From the IMG/VR virus record IMGVR_UViG_3300032311_000203, positions 1 through 32,103 of that record: DNA of 32,103 nucleotides; one strand, given 5' to 3'. This document shows positions 474-32,103 of the stretch, in pieces. The notes beneath the pieces were generated by a model. It had not been told where the DNA came from and did no database searches. It saw nothing but the letters and a program-made list of their open reading frames with translations. The stretch's first letter is position 1, and each line of letters starts with the position of its first letter. The DNA is from a virus. Made by a program: the position numbers and the translations under genes.

Positions 474-511
474 ACCCCTCGTATAAAATGGCGGTATTAG
501 GAACGAGGGGT
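474..511 (-). terminator. Intrinsic terminator, minus strand
   Basis: A perfect 9-bp stem (ACCCCTCGT at 474-482, ACGAGGGGT at 503-511) encloses a 20-nt loop. On the minus strand the stem runs into TTTTTGTTTG. There is no T-tract on the plus side, so it should stop only minus-strand transcription, for example antisense reads crossing the bS21 gene. Confidence 0.7.
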
Positions 512-524
512 ATAAACAATACAA

Positions 525-551
525 TATGGGAGATGTATCACGTCTCCCATA
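525..551 (+). promoter_or_regulatory. Tight 12-bp hairpin upstream of bS21
   Basis: TATGGGAGATGT (525-536) pairs with ACGTCTCCCATA (540-551) around a three-base loop, with one G-T pair. No T-tract follows on either strand, so it is not a normal terminator. It ends 58 bases before the bS21 start codon and could be an operator or an mRNA structure controlling that gene. The hairpin is plain in the sequence; its role is inference. Confidence 0.5.
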
Positions 552-609
552 CGGATATATATACTACAAATTCTAAAAATGTTGTTTTATATATAAAGAT
601 AAAAATATT

Positions 610-825
610 ATGGGAAAGATAAGTTATGCAAGTGTAGAGAGAAGAGGTGGTGAAGATATCGCATCGATGTTAAAAAGATTTAAACGTAAGGTTGAAGCAT
701 CGGGTCATTTGATAGAATTAAGAGAACGCAAGGAATATCTTAAACCATCAGTTATAAAACGTAAAGCAAAACAACAAGTAATTTATAGGGAGAAGATTAA
801 GAATCTAAAACAACAATCAAAGTAA
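610..825 (+). CDS. rpsU: Phage-encoded ribosomal protein bS21
   Basis: This 71-residue very basic protein has the bS21 pattern. A variable N-terminus is followed by LKRFKRKVEASG (residues 21-32), then LRERKEYLKPSVIKRK (37-52) and a Lys-rich helix. In bacteria bS21 sits on the 30S platform beside the 3' end of 16S rRNA. In Bacteroidota it helps sequester the anti-Shine-Dalgarno sequence. The KPSVxKR form and a tyrosine 12 residues after that Ser (Y59) match my recollection of Bacteroidota bS21 better than E. coli bS21. The ATG at 610 follows an A/T-rich leader with no AGGAGG. It is the only convincing plus-strand gene here, convergent with the structural operon and with its own terminator at 846-873. 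It probably enters host ribosomes and biases translation, which is inference. Confidence 0.88.
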   Translation: MGKISYASVERRGGEDIASMLKRFKRKVEASGHLIELRERKEYLKPSVIKRKAKQQVIYREKIKNLKQQSK

Positions 826-845
826 TCTGAATTTGATTGCATTAA

Positions 846-873
846 AAAAGGAGTGGTTTTTACCATTCCTTTT
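846..873. terminator. Bidirectional terminator between bS21 and the structural operon
   Basis: A 12-bp stem with one wobble pair (846-857 with 862-873) and a four-base loop has T-rich runs on both strands: TTTTCTTTTT on plus, and a T6 run on minus that includes the end of the stem. It can end both the bS21 transcript and the long minus-strand structural operon. Confidence 0.8.
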
Positions 874-889
874 TCTTTTTAAGGTAATC

Positions 890-1006
890 TTACCTTTTTA
901 TATATTCATCATCTCCTTGCCCGCTAGGAATTGGATTATAACCTATTCTAACTTCTTTACCTCTATAGGCTTGGGTGTTTAGAGATTGCCTATACTTTAA
1001 TATCTT
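890..1006 (-). other. Open frame without a start codon, in the +1 frame of the 52-residue gene
   Basis: A 38-codon stretch with no ATG, GTG or TTG overlaps the end of gene 990-1148 and lies in its +1 frame. Its ending, GKEVRIGYNPIPSGQGDDE, looks like real protein. It could be the second half of the upstream gene reached by a +1 shift near the TAG at 990-992, a remnant left by an indel, or chance. It ends just before the operon terminator. Confidence 0.3.
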
Positions 1007-1148
1007 CTATTAACTTTTCTATCTTTTTATCAATTTCATTTATAGTCCACGAAAGAGTTATAAGAATTTCTCTTAATTCATCTATATCTCTTTTACAATG
1101 TTCTGAATCTAATTCTAATTGTAATAATCTAGTTTCTAAGGTATCCAT
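990..1148 (-). CDS. Small helical protein, probable coiled coil
   Basis: This is a 52-residue protein starting at an ATG three bases after the previous gene's stop. It is rich in Leu, Glu, Ile and Lys in a heptad-like pattern (LETRLLQLELDSE near the N-terminus, INEIDKKIEKLIEDI near the C-terminus), so it is probably one long helix or a short coiled coil. The tight spacing to gene 1151-1546 and the normal codon use support a real gene. It is the last ATG-started gene of the structural operon, about 120 bases before the terminator. I do not recognise a family. A small virion or assembly factor is possible but unproven. Confidence 0.6.
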   Translation of the reverse strand: MDTLETRLLQLELDSEHCKRDIDELREILITLSWTINEIDKKIEKLIEDIKV

Positions 1149-3910: not shown

Positions 3911-4940
3911 CTTTTTTCTTTTTAACTTTAGCAACTTCACCTGGATAAGAAGATGAGATTGAAGGTTGTTCGCTTTCTACTAACACACCTAACTCTCTCA
4001 ATTTATTTCTACTCCATCCCAATGCAGTTTTACCACCCCAACTATCGTACATCAATTTACCACATCCATCTGAATAGGTTTTTGATGATTCTAAATCTAC
4101 TTCATGTCTACTAAGATATGAGTACATTCTTTTAATAGTTTCTATCGAAATAGGTTCTCCATTTGCCAATTGATTTGCTCTTATTTTGCCAACTGGAGTA
4201 CCACAACTTCCCCAACCATTCTTATTTACAAACTCTAATACTTTCTTAGCGTTATTTCTTACACTATCTCCGTAATCAGAGTACGATTCCATCTCAACTT
4301 TTTTTTTTGATTTGAATCGGTTATCTGTTTTGATTAATGCTCTTAAAGTAGATAAGAATATCTCTGCTTCTACTTCAGTCATTTCATCTATATCTTTATC
4401 AATTTCTACTTTAGATGCATGAACTAAATCATGTGTGAATGTTCCTTCAATACTGAAACCTTTTACTTTTCCAGTCTTAACATAATCATTCCATATCTTT
4501 TCACCTTCAGGTGATTTATCTACTGAAAATACACCTACCCATGTTCCATCTGGTAAATTCAAACCATATTTGTTAGATTTATCAAATGAACCTTCTTTAA
4601 TCCAACTCTCTACTAAATCAACACCTTTAATGGATTTACCATGTTCTAATGTTGCTTTATCAGTATATTTACTTTTAAGATAGTTTTGAGCTAATTGTTT
4701 TACTGTCTCTTTCTTTAAAAATACGTGGTAAGGTTGACCTTCACCATCTACTCTTAAAATAGGCTTATCAGCAATAAGTATTGGTCCTAAAATCAATCTT
4801 TGTTCTGTATCTACACTAGCAAAATGAATCTCTTCTTTTCCAAAGTAAATAAAATCAGATTCTATAGCAGGAGATTCTACTAATGAAATTGCAAAAATTT
4901 CATCTGTGTCATCCTGTATTTTTAATTCGTATAGTTTCAT
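3897..4940 (-). CDS. XkdF-like prohead protease with a C-terminal helical domain
   Basis: This 347-residue protein begins as XkdF proteins do: YELKIQDDTDEIFAISLVES, then a beta-rich core containing ATLEHGKS with H100 and KGFSIEGTF with S163. These are the expected His and Ser of a prohead-protease-type serine peptidase. Such enzymes cut scaffold and capsid precursors during head maturation. Residues 225-325 form a second domain (NNAKKVLEFVNKNGWGSCGT, DGCGKLMYDSWGGKTALGWS) that I recall in other phage head proteins. Its role is not known to me; DNA or capsid binding is possible. The tail is Lys-rich. The usual place of this gene is between portal and capsid, but here it lies downstream of the tape measure, about 14 kb from the capsid gene on the same strand. 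Confidence 0.78.
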   Translation of the reverse strand: MKLYELKIQDDTDEIFAISLVESPAIESDFIYFGKEEIHFASVDTEQRLILGPILIADKPILRVDGEGQPYHVFLKKETVKQLAQNYLKSKYTDKATLEHGKSIKGVDLVESWIKEGSFDKSNKYGLNLPDGTWVGVFSVDKSPEGEKIWNDYVKTGKVKGFSIEGTFTHDLVHASKVEIDKDIDEMTEVEAEIFLSTLRALIKTDNRFKSKKKVEMESYSDYGDSVRNNAKKVLEFVNKNGWGSCGTPVGKIRANQLANGEPISIETIKRMYSYLSRHEVDLESSKTYSDGCGKLMYDSWGGKTALGWSRNKLRELGVLVESEQPSISSSYPGEVAKVKKKKDDTK

Positions 4941-4975: not shown

Positions 4976-6781
4976 CTAGCCACCATTGAAGGTTGCAGCT
5001 CTACTTGCTCTTCTATCCAAAGCACCTTGTGTCTGAATATCTTTACTTACAACATATGCTCTTACAGTCCCTTGTGATTTAGCAATTGTTTCTCCAATTT
5101 GTTGTGTAGGATTAACTCCCTGTCCACTTTGTATTTGTGGTATTGCAGTAGGTCCAACTGTTGGTGCTGGAATTGCTCCTGCTCCTCCACCTGTTGCTAC
5201 TCCACCTCCTCCACCTCCGGTGTTTCCTCCACCACCACCCGAACTCTTAGAAGATAATACTGCTGCAATTTGTGCTGCAGATGATACACCGACAGTAGCA
5301 ATTTGTAAACCAGTACTAACTTTTAATGCAGCCTTACCTGCTATCGCTCCTGCAATTGCAGCTTTACCTGCTGCTGCTTCCGCGATACCTAATGGTGCAG
5401 TAAGTGGATTTACTAATTTTGGAATTGCCATTAAGATTGCTGCATTACCTGTAGCAATTGCTTTATTATATTCAAATTGTGCTGCTTGATTATTTACTAA
5501 TATTTGACCAATAGATGATGCTGCATTAATTACAATTTGTGCAATTGCAAATGCTTTAGCTGCATCTGAACCATCTTCGAATACACCCTTTATTGAACCG
5601 ATGATATTAGAAATATTTTGTCCTAAATCTACCCAACTTTGGTCTATAGCCTGATTAGTTGCAAATGTTAATTGTTCCCTCTCAGCTTCCATCTTTTTAA
5701 GATTCTCGTAATTCTCTCGCATATATGCTGCAAAATCTTCACGTTTCTTCTTTTGTTCTTCAGCTTCTTTTTCAGCCTTTTCAGTTTCTTCCTTCTTATA
5801 TTTTTCATCAATCTCTCTTAACTTATCAGCTTGTGCCTGTTTAAGAGTGGTTGTATCTTCACCATATTTTGTTGCAAGAGCAATAAGTGATGAATAGTGT
5901 TCATTTACCTTATACTCTTCTTGTTCTCTTTCTGATAACAATTCTAAGAACGCCTCTTTCTGGCCTTCCATAATTGTTTTTAAATCTTCTTCTCTTAACT
6001 TCTTAGCCTCTTCTGCTGCTTGTTTTTCTTGTTCTGCTTTCTTTTTAAGAAATTCTTCTCTATCTTTTTTTCGTTTATCTAATTCTTCTTTCTCTTTTTT
6101 GGTTAACTCTTTTGAACCTGCTTCAAATCTTGCATTTGCTTCTTCATATCTTTTACCAAATTCAGTAACCGATGCCTTAGCATCATCCCATGCACCTGCA
6201 AAATCACCTTTAAATAACTTACTAAGTGCACTTCCTATTTTACCAATACCTTGTAAGAATGATGTTATTGCAGAGTATGCAACTTTAAATCCTTCTGTCA
6301 CATAAGGCATTGCCTTAGTAGCCAAATCAATTAGAGCATCAAATAAGGGTTCTATTGCAGCAAATACACCATTAAGGATTCTTTGAAATCCTTCTAATAC
6401 TGGTTGAAGTTTTTTTGTAGCTCTTTCTGAATTACCAATTGCTGCTACTAATCCTGCGATTAATGCAACTATTAAACCAATACCTGTTGCTTTTAGGGCT
6501 GCACCAAAGGATTGAGTAGCTACTTTTGCCTTATTTAATCCAGCACCTAATACACCAATAGGACCACCTGCAGATTCTAATGAATCAATCCAATCAGAAG
6601 ATGTATTTTTAGCTGATTTAATTTTATCCTCTAAATCATCAATTTGATTGTATATTTTCTTAAACTCTTCAGACCCAGCTGCAGTTTCCTTTAATTGCTT
6701 CTTTAAAACTTTTAAATTCGCAATAGTAGGTTCTATATCCGCGTTTATCTCTATATCGATAGTTACTTTCTTATCGGCCAT
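4976..6781 (-). CDS. Tail tape measure protein
   Basis: This is a 601-residue protein that sets tail length and is usually ejected with the DNA. It starts with VTIDIEINADIEP and a helical segment, as tape measures do. One strongly hydrophobic stretch, GIGLIVALIAGLVAAIG (about residues 100-116), could enter the host membrane. A Lys/Glu-rich coiled coil follows (about 215-360), then an Ala/Ile-rich part, a Gly-rich spacer and the ending VRAYVVSKDIQTQGALDRRA, a C-terminal motif I know from Bacteroidota phage tape measures. At roughly 0.15 nm per residue the length predicts a tail near 90 nm. Unusually, the frameshifted chaperone-like pair is not next to it but 17 kb upstream in the operon. Confidence 0.85.
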   Translation of the reverse strand: MADKKVTIDIEINADIEPTIANLKVLKKQLKETAAGSEEFKKIYNQIDDLEDKIKSAKNTSSDWIDSLESAGGPIGVLGAGLNKAKVATQSFGAALKATGIGLIVALIAGLVAAIGNSERATKKLQPVLEGFQRILNGVFAAIEPLFDALIDLATKAMPYVTEGFKVAYSAITSFLQGIGKIGSALSKLFKGDFAGAWDDAKASVTEFGKRYEEANARFEAGSKELTKKEKEELDKRKKDREEFLKKKAEQEKQAAEEAKKLREEDLKTIMEGQKEAFLELLSEREQEEYKVNEHYSSLIALATKYGEDTTTLKQAQADKLREIDEKYKKEETEKAEKEAEEQKKKREDFAAYMRENYENLKKMEAEREQLTFATNQAIDQSWVDLGQNISNIIGSIKGVFEDGSDAAKAFAIAQIVINAASSIGQILVNNQAAQFEYNKAIATGNAAILMAIPKLVNPLTAPLGIAEAAAGKAAIAGAIAGKAALKVSTGLQIATVGVSSAAQIAAVLSSKSSGGGGGNTGGGGGGVATGGGAGAIPAPTVGPTAIPQIQSGQGVNPTQQIGETIAKSQGTVRAYVVSKDIQTQGALDRRASRAATFNGG

Positions 6782-30120: not shown

Positions 30121-30443
30121 TTATACCTACCTTCTAAACTAGATTGTTGTAGATTCATTTTTTGTGTACCCCAATATAAATTATCACTTTTATTATTATA
30201 GGTATTATGGTCTTTGTGACATACAATATTATATTCGGAAGGATTTGGATTCACAACAAAATGTTGAGCAACTAAACGATGTAATTTAACAGTAACTTTT
30301 TTATTATTTTTTGATAATACATTCAAAACATACCTGTCATATCCATTTATTTTTATAGTATTTCTTTTAACATTTAAAATGTTTCCATATGATGAGATTT
30401 TATATAACCCTTCATATCCATTTAAATCTTTCCAAATTTCCAT
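30111..30443 (-). CDS. NUMOD4 / HNH homing endonuclease, second copy
   Basis: This is a 110-residue protein from ATG 30443; the frame extends to a TTG at 30458, but MEIWKDLNGYEGLYKISSYG is the natural NUMOD4 start. The HNH core is LHRLVAQHFVVNP followed by IVCHKDHNTYNNKSDNLYWG, with the first His, C-H pair in place of N-H, and the later Asn. The usual N before the central His is Cys here, a change that may lower activity. It shares LHRLVAQHF with the HNH gene at 26989-27399 (there VHRLVAQHF). The gene follows the acetyltransferase gene with seven bases between. Confidence 0.85.
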   Translation of the reverse strand: MEIWKDLNGYEGLYKISSYGNILNVKRNTIKINGYDRYVLNVLSKNNKKVTVKLHRLVAQHFVVNPNPSEYNIVCHKDHNTYNNKSDNLYWGTQKMNLQQSSLEGRYKKK

Positions 30444-30450
30444 AATTTTA

Positions 30451-31056
30451 TTATTCAAAGTTACACCATATTAATGAACTATCGGATACAGGTCCAAATC
30501 CAATTCTTTCATAATATGATTTTAATCTATCAATGCATTTCTTTTCATCTTTTGTTGGGAAATTATCATCTGGATATGGTATTAAATAAATTGGTATATT
30601 CATCTCCTCAGATAAATCATATAACTTATTCATTACTTCTGTCCCAACTCCTTTATTTCTTAATTCTTTATTGATGTTAATACCATACAACATAACACCA
30701 TCTGAATATGGAGCGAACATTAATCTACCATAATCTTCATTTACAACTATAAAATCTGATGCATATAGGGATATCTTCATTACTTTGTAATCCTCTCTTT
30801 GAGATGCATACTCAACAATCTCATCATAATACCAATTTGGAATAATGTTTATATCTGCATTTTCAAAGATTGTTTCATTTGCCTTATTCATAAAATTTGA
30901 AAATGGTTTAGTTGATGGAGTTAATCCACACCATCCTATTGTATTTGTTCCATTAATTTGAATAGGTCCCCATACTACATCCGTTACTGCAGTATTATTT
31001 TTAAATACAGGAGACCAATCTTTTTTAGGTTTACTTACTAATTTAAATTTGCTCAT
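30451..31056 (-). CDS. GNAT-family N-acetyltransferase
   Basis: This 201-residue protein has the GNAT acetyl-CoA site near residues 121-150: LYGININKELRNKGVGTEVM with R133, G136 and G138 of the (R/Q)xxGxG loop, followed by the helix NKLYDLSEEMNIPI. A second motif, LKSYYERIGF (179-188), is the usual last helix and Tyr region. Residues 1-100 are specific, with WGPIQINGTNTIGWCGLTPS, and probably choose the substrate. No signal peptide is present. The substrate cannot be read from sequence. Some phage GNATs modify host polymerase or toxins or small molecules. It lies 22 bases after the SEC-C gene, likely on one transcript from promoter P3. Confidence 0.75.
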   Translation of the reverse strand: MSKFKLVSKPKKDWSPVFKNNTAVTDVVWGPIQINGTNTIGWCGLTPSTKPFSNFMNKANETIFENADINIIPNWYYDEIVEYASQREDYKVMKISLYASDFIVVNEDYGRLMFAPYSDGVMLYGININKELRNKGVGTEVMNKLYDLSEEMNIPIYLIPYPDDNFPTKDEKKCIDRLKSYYERIGFGPVSDSSLIWCNFE

Positions 31057-31078
31057 AACTTATTTAGTTTATTGTAAT

Positions 31079-31576
31079 TTAAAATTTTTCTGATGCATAA
31101 CCATAAGTCATTCCATTATAGTTATCATTTTTAATGTAACCTAATGTAGTAAGAATATGAATATCTTGCATTATACACATAGTTGATTTTAATATATTCT
31201 CATCTCCAAAATTTACATTTGCAATACAATGCTTTTCTTTTCTTCTTTCACTACCAATAGTATGTAAATTCCAATATTTGATACTATCTTCTAAATGTTT
31301 GAAACACTCCTTTGCATCAAACTCTTCACCAGTTTTTTCCAAATCTTCTAACTCAGCCTCTGTCATTTTAAAAACAGCAGTTGATAACATATTAGCTTGT
31401 TCATAACCCATTACACCAAATGAGAACCCATCTAATGTATCATCTTTATAATAAGCACCAAATGTATTGATGTATTCATTTTTGGGTTGATTAGTTTGGC
31501 TAGTTTTCATACAACATTTTTTGTACTTAATACCTGAACCACAATTACATTTTTCGTTTCTTTCTTGATTTTTCAT
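31079..31576 (-). CDS. SEC-C zinc-motif protein
   Basis: This 165-residue protein starts with a SEC-C motif: RNEKCNCGSGIKYKKCC, with C10-x-C12 and C21-C22 (CxC-x8-CC), which normally binds one zinc ion. In SecA this motif mediates SecB contact. In many stand-alone proteins its partner is unknown. The remaining part (INTFGAYYKDDTLDGFSFGV, LDKTG-like helices, CIMQDIHILTTLGYIKNDNY) is unfamiliar. Promoter P3 (31627-31658) lies about 45 bases before its ATG, so it heads the accessory transcript with the GNAT gene. A host-interaction role is plausible but unproven. Confidence 0.75.
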   Translation of the reverse strand: MKNQERNEKCNCGSGIKYKKCCMKTSQTNQPKNEYINTFGAYYKDDTLDGFSFGVMGYEQANMLSTAVFKMTEAELEDLEKTGEEFDAKECFKHLEDSIKYWNLHTIGSERRKEKHCIANVNFGDENILKSTMCIMQDIHILTTLGYIKNDNYNGMTYGYASEKF

Positions 31577-31626
31577 TTTTTTATTTGTTTTAAATTTTAA
31601 ATTGTTTATCTCTTAATCTTATAAAG

Positions 31627-31658
31627 CTAATATACAACATTTTTTTGGGATTTCCAAA
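31627..31658 (-). promoter_or_regulatory. Promoter P3 for the SEC-C / GNAT / HNH transcript
   Basis: TTTG (31658-31655) in TGTTTGGAAATCCC, exactly 20 bp, then TATATTAG (31634-31627). The upstream motif nearly repeats that of P2 at 311-325. The expected start is near 31620, about 45 bases before the SEC-C gene. Confidence 0.6.
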
Positions 31659-31660
31659 CA

Positions 31661-31734
31661 TTTTCTTACCTATTAAGAAAAGTTTTTTATAACTAATTGA
31701 TTATCAATCAGTTAGCTAAATCATTGATTATCAA
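31661..31734. repeat. Small repeats between the FG-GAP-like gene and P3
   Basis: TTTTCTTA and TAAGAAAA (31661-31668, 31674-31681) form an AT-only 8-bp hairpin with no good T-tract on the minus strand. A 12-bp direct repeat ATTGATTATCAA occurs at 31696-31707 and 31723-31734. Either could be an operator for P3; neither is strong evidence. Confidence 0.35.
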
Positions 31735-32103
31735 CGAAATGTGTACTTAACCCATTTATTATTTATCTTTTTATAACCATTGGTTTTACTATCACTATAA
31801 TTCTCCGCTACAATATCTACCACCCCATCCTTGTCCATATCATCAAATTTAAAGGAACTCCATCCGTAACTATCCATATTTCCTTCCGCTTTACCACCAT
31901 CTAATGGGTTATCGAAATAGGTATCATCTAAAAGGTATTTACCATTTGAATCGATATACACGAGTATTTTAGATATACCATCGTTGTTTTGTCTTAATTG
32001 TATAATATCTTTTTTACCATCTGAGTTCATATCAAATAATTCTAAATCCATTATGGCTTTCCATTCCTTTTCTTGTTCAAAATTATAAACTTTAGAATCA
32101 GTA
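31731..32103 (-). CDS. FG-GAP/VCBS-like repeat protein, 5' end outside the window
   Basis: The frame is open up to the window edge, so the protein is partial here; its visible part begins TDSKVYNFEQEKEWKA ahead of an internal ATG at 32051. Two DxNxDG or DxDxDG loops occur, FDMNSDGKKDIIQL and FDDMDKDGVVDIV, each followed by a strand. This is the calcium-binding repeat pattern of FG-GAP/VCBS blades. Such domains mostly act in surface or secreted binding proteins. At least 123 residues are visible, with the C-terminus KKINNKWVKYTFR. The function in a phage is unknown to me; adhesion or a lipoprotein-like role cannot be judged without the N-terminus. Confidence 0.65.
   Translation of the reverse strand, partial: TDSKVYNFEQEKEWKAIMDLELFDMNSDGKKDIIQLRQNNDGISKILVYIDSNGKYLLDDTYFDNPLDGGKAEGNMDSYGWSSFKFDDMDKDGVVDIVAENYSDSKTNGYKKINNKWVKYTFR

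Follow-up and report, generated by a model that had tools for sequence, protein, structure and literature searches.

A small tailed phage carries a phage-lineage bS21 gene that starts without a Shine-Dalgarno sequence

Phage genes for ribosomal protein bS21, their Bacteroidota hosts, the Tyr at position 54 and a location on the opposite strand have all been published, and replacement of host bS21 with altered mRNA choice has been proposed (Mizuno 2019, PMC6375957; Chen 2022, PMC9723584). The locus described here raises the question of what such a protein might do when its own gene lacks a Shine-Dalgarno sequence (SD). The window, meaning the whole stretch of DNA analysed, is one entire IMG/VR record of 32,103 bp, labelled linear, from a tailed phage with terminase, portal, protease, tape measure and sigma-like factor genes. 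Its terminase is closest, at ~35%, to those of Bacteroides, Phocaeicola and Flavobacterium phages, and 61 IMG/VR records match it at 62-97%. As the two ends of the window adjoin in the gene order of its kin L088 (bS21, SEC-C gene, GNAT gene), the record probably covers almost the whole of a circularly permuted genome; the gene at 31731-32102, cut at the right end, shows that some bases are missing. Searched against Bacteroidia genomes, the terminase (about 345 genomes) reached no more than 38% identity and the portal (about 395) no more than 31%, too distant to point to a host order. A 1.2-kb segment with the SEC-C and GNAT genes (30436-31635) is 97% identical to L088, compared with about 50-85% for shared late proteins, which suggests recent exchange of this segment.

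The original prediction took the following gene to encode bS21, and stood or fell with a significant profile match:

610-825, plus strand: phage bS21 coding sequence, 71 aa, ATG start, with Y59 equivalent to F. johnsoniae Y54 (Pfam and NCBIfam scores above cut-off, 7jil alignment, AlphaFold helices)

Profile searches bore this out, with scores exceeding the curated cut-offs of both Pfam (PF01165, E 3e-13, 49.7 bits against 27) and NCBIfam (TIGR00030, 36.6 bits against 28.95). The open reading frame also matched PHROG 21469, ribosomal protein S21, and its best matches among solved structures were bS21 chains, F. johnsoniae 7jil among them. An AlphaFold model (mean pLDDT 81) consists of two long helices and a linker, 17-39 (17-31/33-39) and 48-70, with Y59 in the second helix. 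All 15 Foldseek matches to this model were ribosomal, with bS21 chains on top, although none was significant (best E 0.21). In a phmmer alignment, residues 12-65 lay on 7-60 of F. johnsoniae bS21 (7jil) without gaps; Y59 therefore corresponds to Y54, confirming the expectation that it falls at the spacing of the flavobacterial Tyr.

In F. johnsoniae, the Y54A exchange raises SD-led translation (PMC9976891). An aromatic residue at this position, as in bS21 that occludes the anti-SD (ASD), was present in 9/11 related phages including the window, the other two carrying Arg. Hosts mostly have Tyr here and other phages mostly Arg. Across 39 phage bS21 proteins, 13 were aromatic at position 54; each of these came from a phage with mostly SD-less genes, and none came from the 16 SD-using phages (Fisher p 3e-4). 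Only two changes on the tree suffice to explain this association, which therefore does not count as independent evidence. The distribution fits the published role of Tyr54 in anti-SD occlusion (PMC9976891, PMC9723584). Nevertheless, occlusion through residue 54 is not indispensable, because the two kin with Arg also have SD-less genes.

The phage protein had been described as Bacteroidota-type, which was just partly right. The aromatic residue 54 agrees with this label, but a tree of 130 bS21 proteins (65 columns; other phyla represented by two sequences and two stray loci) placed the protein in a phage clade and not with Bacteroidia host bS21. All kin and most other phages formed one clade of 32 rows (100/93), apart from 89 host proteins that were nearly all from Bacteroidia, indicating that bS21 is here an old phage gene and not a recent host capture. 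Within the clade, the window protein grouped with those of G006 and G016 (99/97), and with nine kin (98/91). Two residues, V28 and H33, equivalent to F. johnsoniae positions 23 and 28, are of phage type and, at the level of sequence, support the phage clade; hosts mostly have F and V/T there. Val at position 23 occurred in 10/11 kin including the window, and His at position 28 in 11/11 kin including the window, 18/28 other phages and 0/89 host proteins. In the L088-L092 pair, which is not saturated at synonymous sites, dN was 0.10 and dS 0.91 (dN/dS about 0.11), showing purifying selection on bS21.

These phage-specific residues His 28 and Val 23 lie in the N-terminal half, which Chen et al. 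2022 also found to be divergent (PMC9723584). They are what would be expected if, as Mizuno 2019 and Chen 2022 proposed, phage bS21 in ribosomes used a divergent N-terminal half to shift mRNA choice towards phage over host mRNAs. We regard this as unlikely, as mRNAs in Bacteroidota lack an SD whether they come from phage or host, leaving no known sequence feature for such a ribosome to read, and the divergence may just reflect an old phage lineage.

For start signals, we computed how strongly the 22 nt preceding every start codon pair with the 16S tail AUCACCUCCUUUCU, calling starts SD-less when pairing was weaker than -6 kcal/mol and SD-led, or carrying an extended SD, when it was below -13 kcal/mol. 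The region before the phage gene was

588-609, plus strand: A/T-rich translation initiation region without SD (16S-tail duplex -1.3 kcal/mol)

Pairing at just -1.3 kcal/mol means that bS21 has no SD, as predicted, and falls far from the extended SD (below -13 kcal/mol) of autoregulated Flavobacteriales rpsU. Similar A-rich, SD-less starts precede the bS21 genes of the kin. As 44/45 window genes paired more weakly than -6 kcal/mol, an SD-less start is this phage's default and not peculiar to bS21. Other phages combine an SD-less bS21 gene (+1.7 to +2.0 kcal/mol) with SDs on 38-56% of their genes (L006/L381, L013/L385, L015/L371 and L115/L382), the reverse of the host rpsU pattern.

Host rpsU had been put forward as SD-led and autoregulated, in contrast to the phage gene. 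In F. johnsoniae, rpsU indeed has an extended SD and is autoregulated (McNutt et al. 2023, PMC9976891; structure 7JIL). Without bS21, or with its C-terminus missing, F. johnsoniae ribosomes favour the SD-led rpsU mRNA and are inefficient at initiating on mRNAs that have no SD (PMC9976891). The phage protein resembles F. johnsoniae bS21 in family, in its gapless alignment over residues 12-65 and in Tyr at position 54, but differs in V28 and H33 and in the missing SD of its gene. An SD-led bS21 gene was found in 28/31 Flavobacteriaceae genomes compared with 0/11 phages (window and kin). However, only about a fifth of host rpsU genes were SD-led in broader Bacteroidia samples, 5/27 at order level and 5/28 at class level. 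These samples were spread evenly over diverse lineages with only the best-scoring locus per genome kept, so that a second, SD-led copy could be missed. The contrast between phage and host is thus right for Flavobacteriaceae, and the phage's own host may differ.

Some Flavobacteriaceae carry several bS21 genes. In 15/15 sampled genomes with 2-3 full-length copies, a strong SD (pairing at about -16 to -23 kcal/mol) precedes exactly one copy, the others having none (for example, L243 with L338 and L346; L326 with L349 and L353; L325 with L355 and L356), as if one bS21 paralogue only were under SD-dependent autoregulation. Like phage bS21, the SD-less paralogues have Tyr54 and no SD, and so lie outside SD-dependent autoregulation. 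They differ in being chromosomal and in grouping with host proteins, and the literature cited reports no function for them.

That SD-less bS21 paralogues occur in host chromosomes too would suit a plainer account, in which phage bS21 mainly tops up an exchangeable protein for late translation, without special regulation or a change in specificity. bS21 belongs to those ribosomal proteins that bind loosely and can be exchanged (PMC6375957), this phage expresses its genes without an SD by default, and bS21 is patchy among the kin. An old clade distinct from hosts and conserved phage-specific residues nonetheless suggest more than dosage, and we consider this account quite improbable.

Since all other window genes are on the minus strand, bS21 is alone on the plus strand, as originally noted. 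Three hairpins flank it:

845-874, plus strand: intrinsic terminator-like hairpin behind bS21, with T-runs on both strands (scan 1 found against 0.4 expected in shuffles; fold z -4.8)
474-511, minus strand: hairpin and T-run in the position that the late-operon terminator occupies in L088 (minus-strand fold z -4.4)
525-551, plus strand: 12-bp hairpin with 3-nt loop in the putative bS21 leader (inverted repeat I22)

The first of these agrees with the terminator that had been predicted. Because of its T-runs on both strands, it may terminate the late minus-strand operon as well. The second has a counterpart in L088 (4338-4385) at the same position, with similar GC arms before the early leader. 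The leader, 470-615, folds at z -4.9, and its hairpin, TATGGGAGATGT atc ACGTCTCCCATA with one mismatch, was not seen in L088. No Rfam element was found in the bS21 leader or elsewhere in the window, and a sigma-70 promoter search for bS21 gave nothing above shuffles. The suggested transcription unit of its own is consistent with a sole plus-strand gene followed by a terminator-like site, but we infer it only, because no promoter exceeded shuffles. Repeated leader- or promoter-like DNA precedes early genes of this phage type, in the window at 2-56, 285-339 and about 31569-31664 (the first two are 55 nt long and 78% identical) and in L088 at about 4480-4590 and 5020-5126.

We compared the locus with ten related records that carry bS21, three of them terminase kin and seven found through bS21. 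In all ten, bS21 sits in the interval that separates the end of the late genes from the early ones, giving a single syntenic site in 11 records, the window included. bS21 is on the late-gene strand in 10/10 kin and inverted in place only in the window, where two neighbouring features mark the original arrangement:

990-1148, minus strand: last conserved late-operon gene, neighbour of bS21 and synteny anchor (orthologues adjoin bS21 in G006, G016, L088, L092 and L101)
892-1006, minus strand: frame without ATG whose DNA resembles the region immediately 5' of bS21 in kin, marking the ancestral upstream side (DNA comparison with L232 and L088)

Window 915-967 (minus strand) is 80% identical to L232 3663-3716, DNA that in kin lies immediately upstream of bS21 and in the window adjoins the 3' end of the inverted gene. 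This position, together with the hairpin at 474-511 in the place of the L088 late terminator, indicates that only the bS21 segment was flipped. The kin have a small conserved open reading frame immediately upstream of bS21 (L231 5444-5599, L088 3831-3977); window 892-1006 retains DNA related to it, but no ATG-started frame. An invertible switch was rejected, as inverted repeats flanking bS21 are too short (best 13 nt at 92%). An assembly artefact is unlikely, with no long inverted repeat seen that could cause one. The inversion rests on one record, because the phage collection searched held no near-identical record and IMG/VR no second record with this gene arrangement.

Full-length kin do not always carry the gene. 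Among nine terminase kin records of at least 30 kb, 8/9 lacked bS21, which is therefore not essential to this phage type. In G009, a 709-aa helicase-like gene on the opposite strand occupies the bS21 interval, and the interval between late and early genes is an accessory-gene site. The inversion, unique to the window against the late strand in 10/10 kin, could mean that bS21 is on its way out in this phage, having lost the late-operon promoter and being little expressed. The promoter search fits this, and a minus-strand late transcript would run antisense through bS21 if hairpin 845-874 leaks. Yet the open reading frame, start region and terminator are intact, and the phage bS21 genes of Chen 2022, also opposite to structural genes, are highly expressed (PMC9723584). 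We therefore think decay very improbable.

With those phages (PMC9723584), the window shares an aromatic residue 54, separation from host proteins in trees and a gene opposite to the structural genes, an orientation it has although its own kin have late-strand bS21. A Bacteroidota host was predicted for them, and the window terminase is likewise closest to Bacteroidota phages; their bS21 is expressed late (PMC9723584). They are, however, mostly large, with complete genomes up to 331 kb compared with about 32 kb, and carry bS21 no more than about five genes away from terminase, portal and capsid, whereas in the window it lies at the end of the late operon, >14 kb from both portal (15116) and TerL (24565). 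Replacement of the host protein was also proposed for the bS21 of Pelagibacter phage HTVC008M, which was shown to go into E. coli ribosomes; the ribosomes carrying it were nearly inactive in extracts (Mizuno et al. 2019, PMC6375957). That phage has an alphaproteobacterial host, a large genome and a bS21 that is host-derived in the authors' tree, in contrast to the old phage clade here.

From a gene that is present, lacks an SD and keeps the Tyr, the most economical reading is an ASD-occluding bS21 made from SD-less mRNA. We lean, with some confidence, towards a functional phage-lineage bS21 that would enter the host 30S in Bacteroidota, keep the 16S tail occluded and be made outside rpsU feedback. 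Family membership, the Y54 equivalent, an SD-less start among SD-less phage genes, synteny and the purifying selection seen in a single kin pair are shown here, while expression, entry into ribosomes, occlusion of the tail and an effect on host rpsU are inferred. During infection, phage bS21 would join the small subunit, replacing or supplementing host bS21, and its C-terminal helix with Y59 would hold the 16S 3' tail out of reach, the role that Y54 has in Flavobacterium. Ribosomes would then stay in a form suited to SD-less mRNAs, which nearly all phage mRNAs are. The SD-less bS21 mRNA would need no bS21-free ribosomes and would not be self-limited; because it has no SD, the protein would be made outside the SD-dependent rpsU feedback loop of many Flavobacteriaceae. 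Where the host uses this loop, ribosome-bound phage bS21 would also hold host rpsU translation low. Against this reading stand the sampled Bacteroidia outside Flavobacteriaceae, most of whose rpsU genes also lack a strong SD, as well as the SD-less default, Arg54 in two kin, bS21 in 1/9 full-length kin, no promoter above shuffles and the near-inactive E. coli ribosomes.

In a speculation by McNutt et al., autoregulation might restore the supply of host bS21 in infected cells (PMC9976891). Escape of an SD-less phage bS21 from SD-dependent rpsU autoregulation was not found in the phage-bS21 and rpsU literature cited. It is possible, and we offer it tentatively, that Bacteroidota phages bypass the SD-based rpsU feedback of their hosts, with bS21 from the SD-less gene made by ordinary bS21-replete ribosomes and not self-limited, the anti-SD occluded through its aromatic residue, host rpsU thereby silenced and the ribosome pool phage-marked.

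As far as the cited literature shows, what is new is the syntenic placing of bS21 in a phage type of ~32 kb, its inversion in place and the explicit setting of phage against host start signals. To a family and a replacement idea already in print, this case adds a small phage type whose bS21 has a fixed site. The contrast to test is that of a Flavobacteriaceae rpsU under SD-dependent feedback and a phage gene outside it, which bears on viral takeover of ribosome composition.
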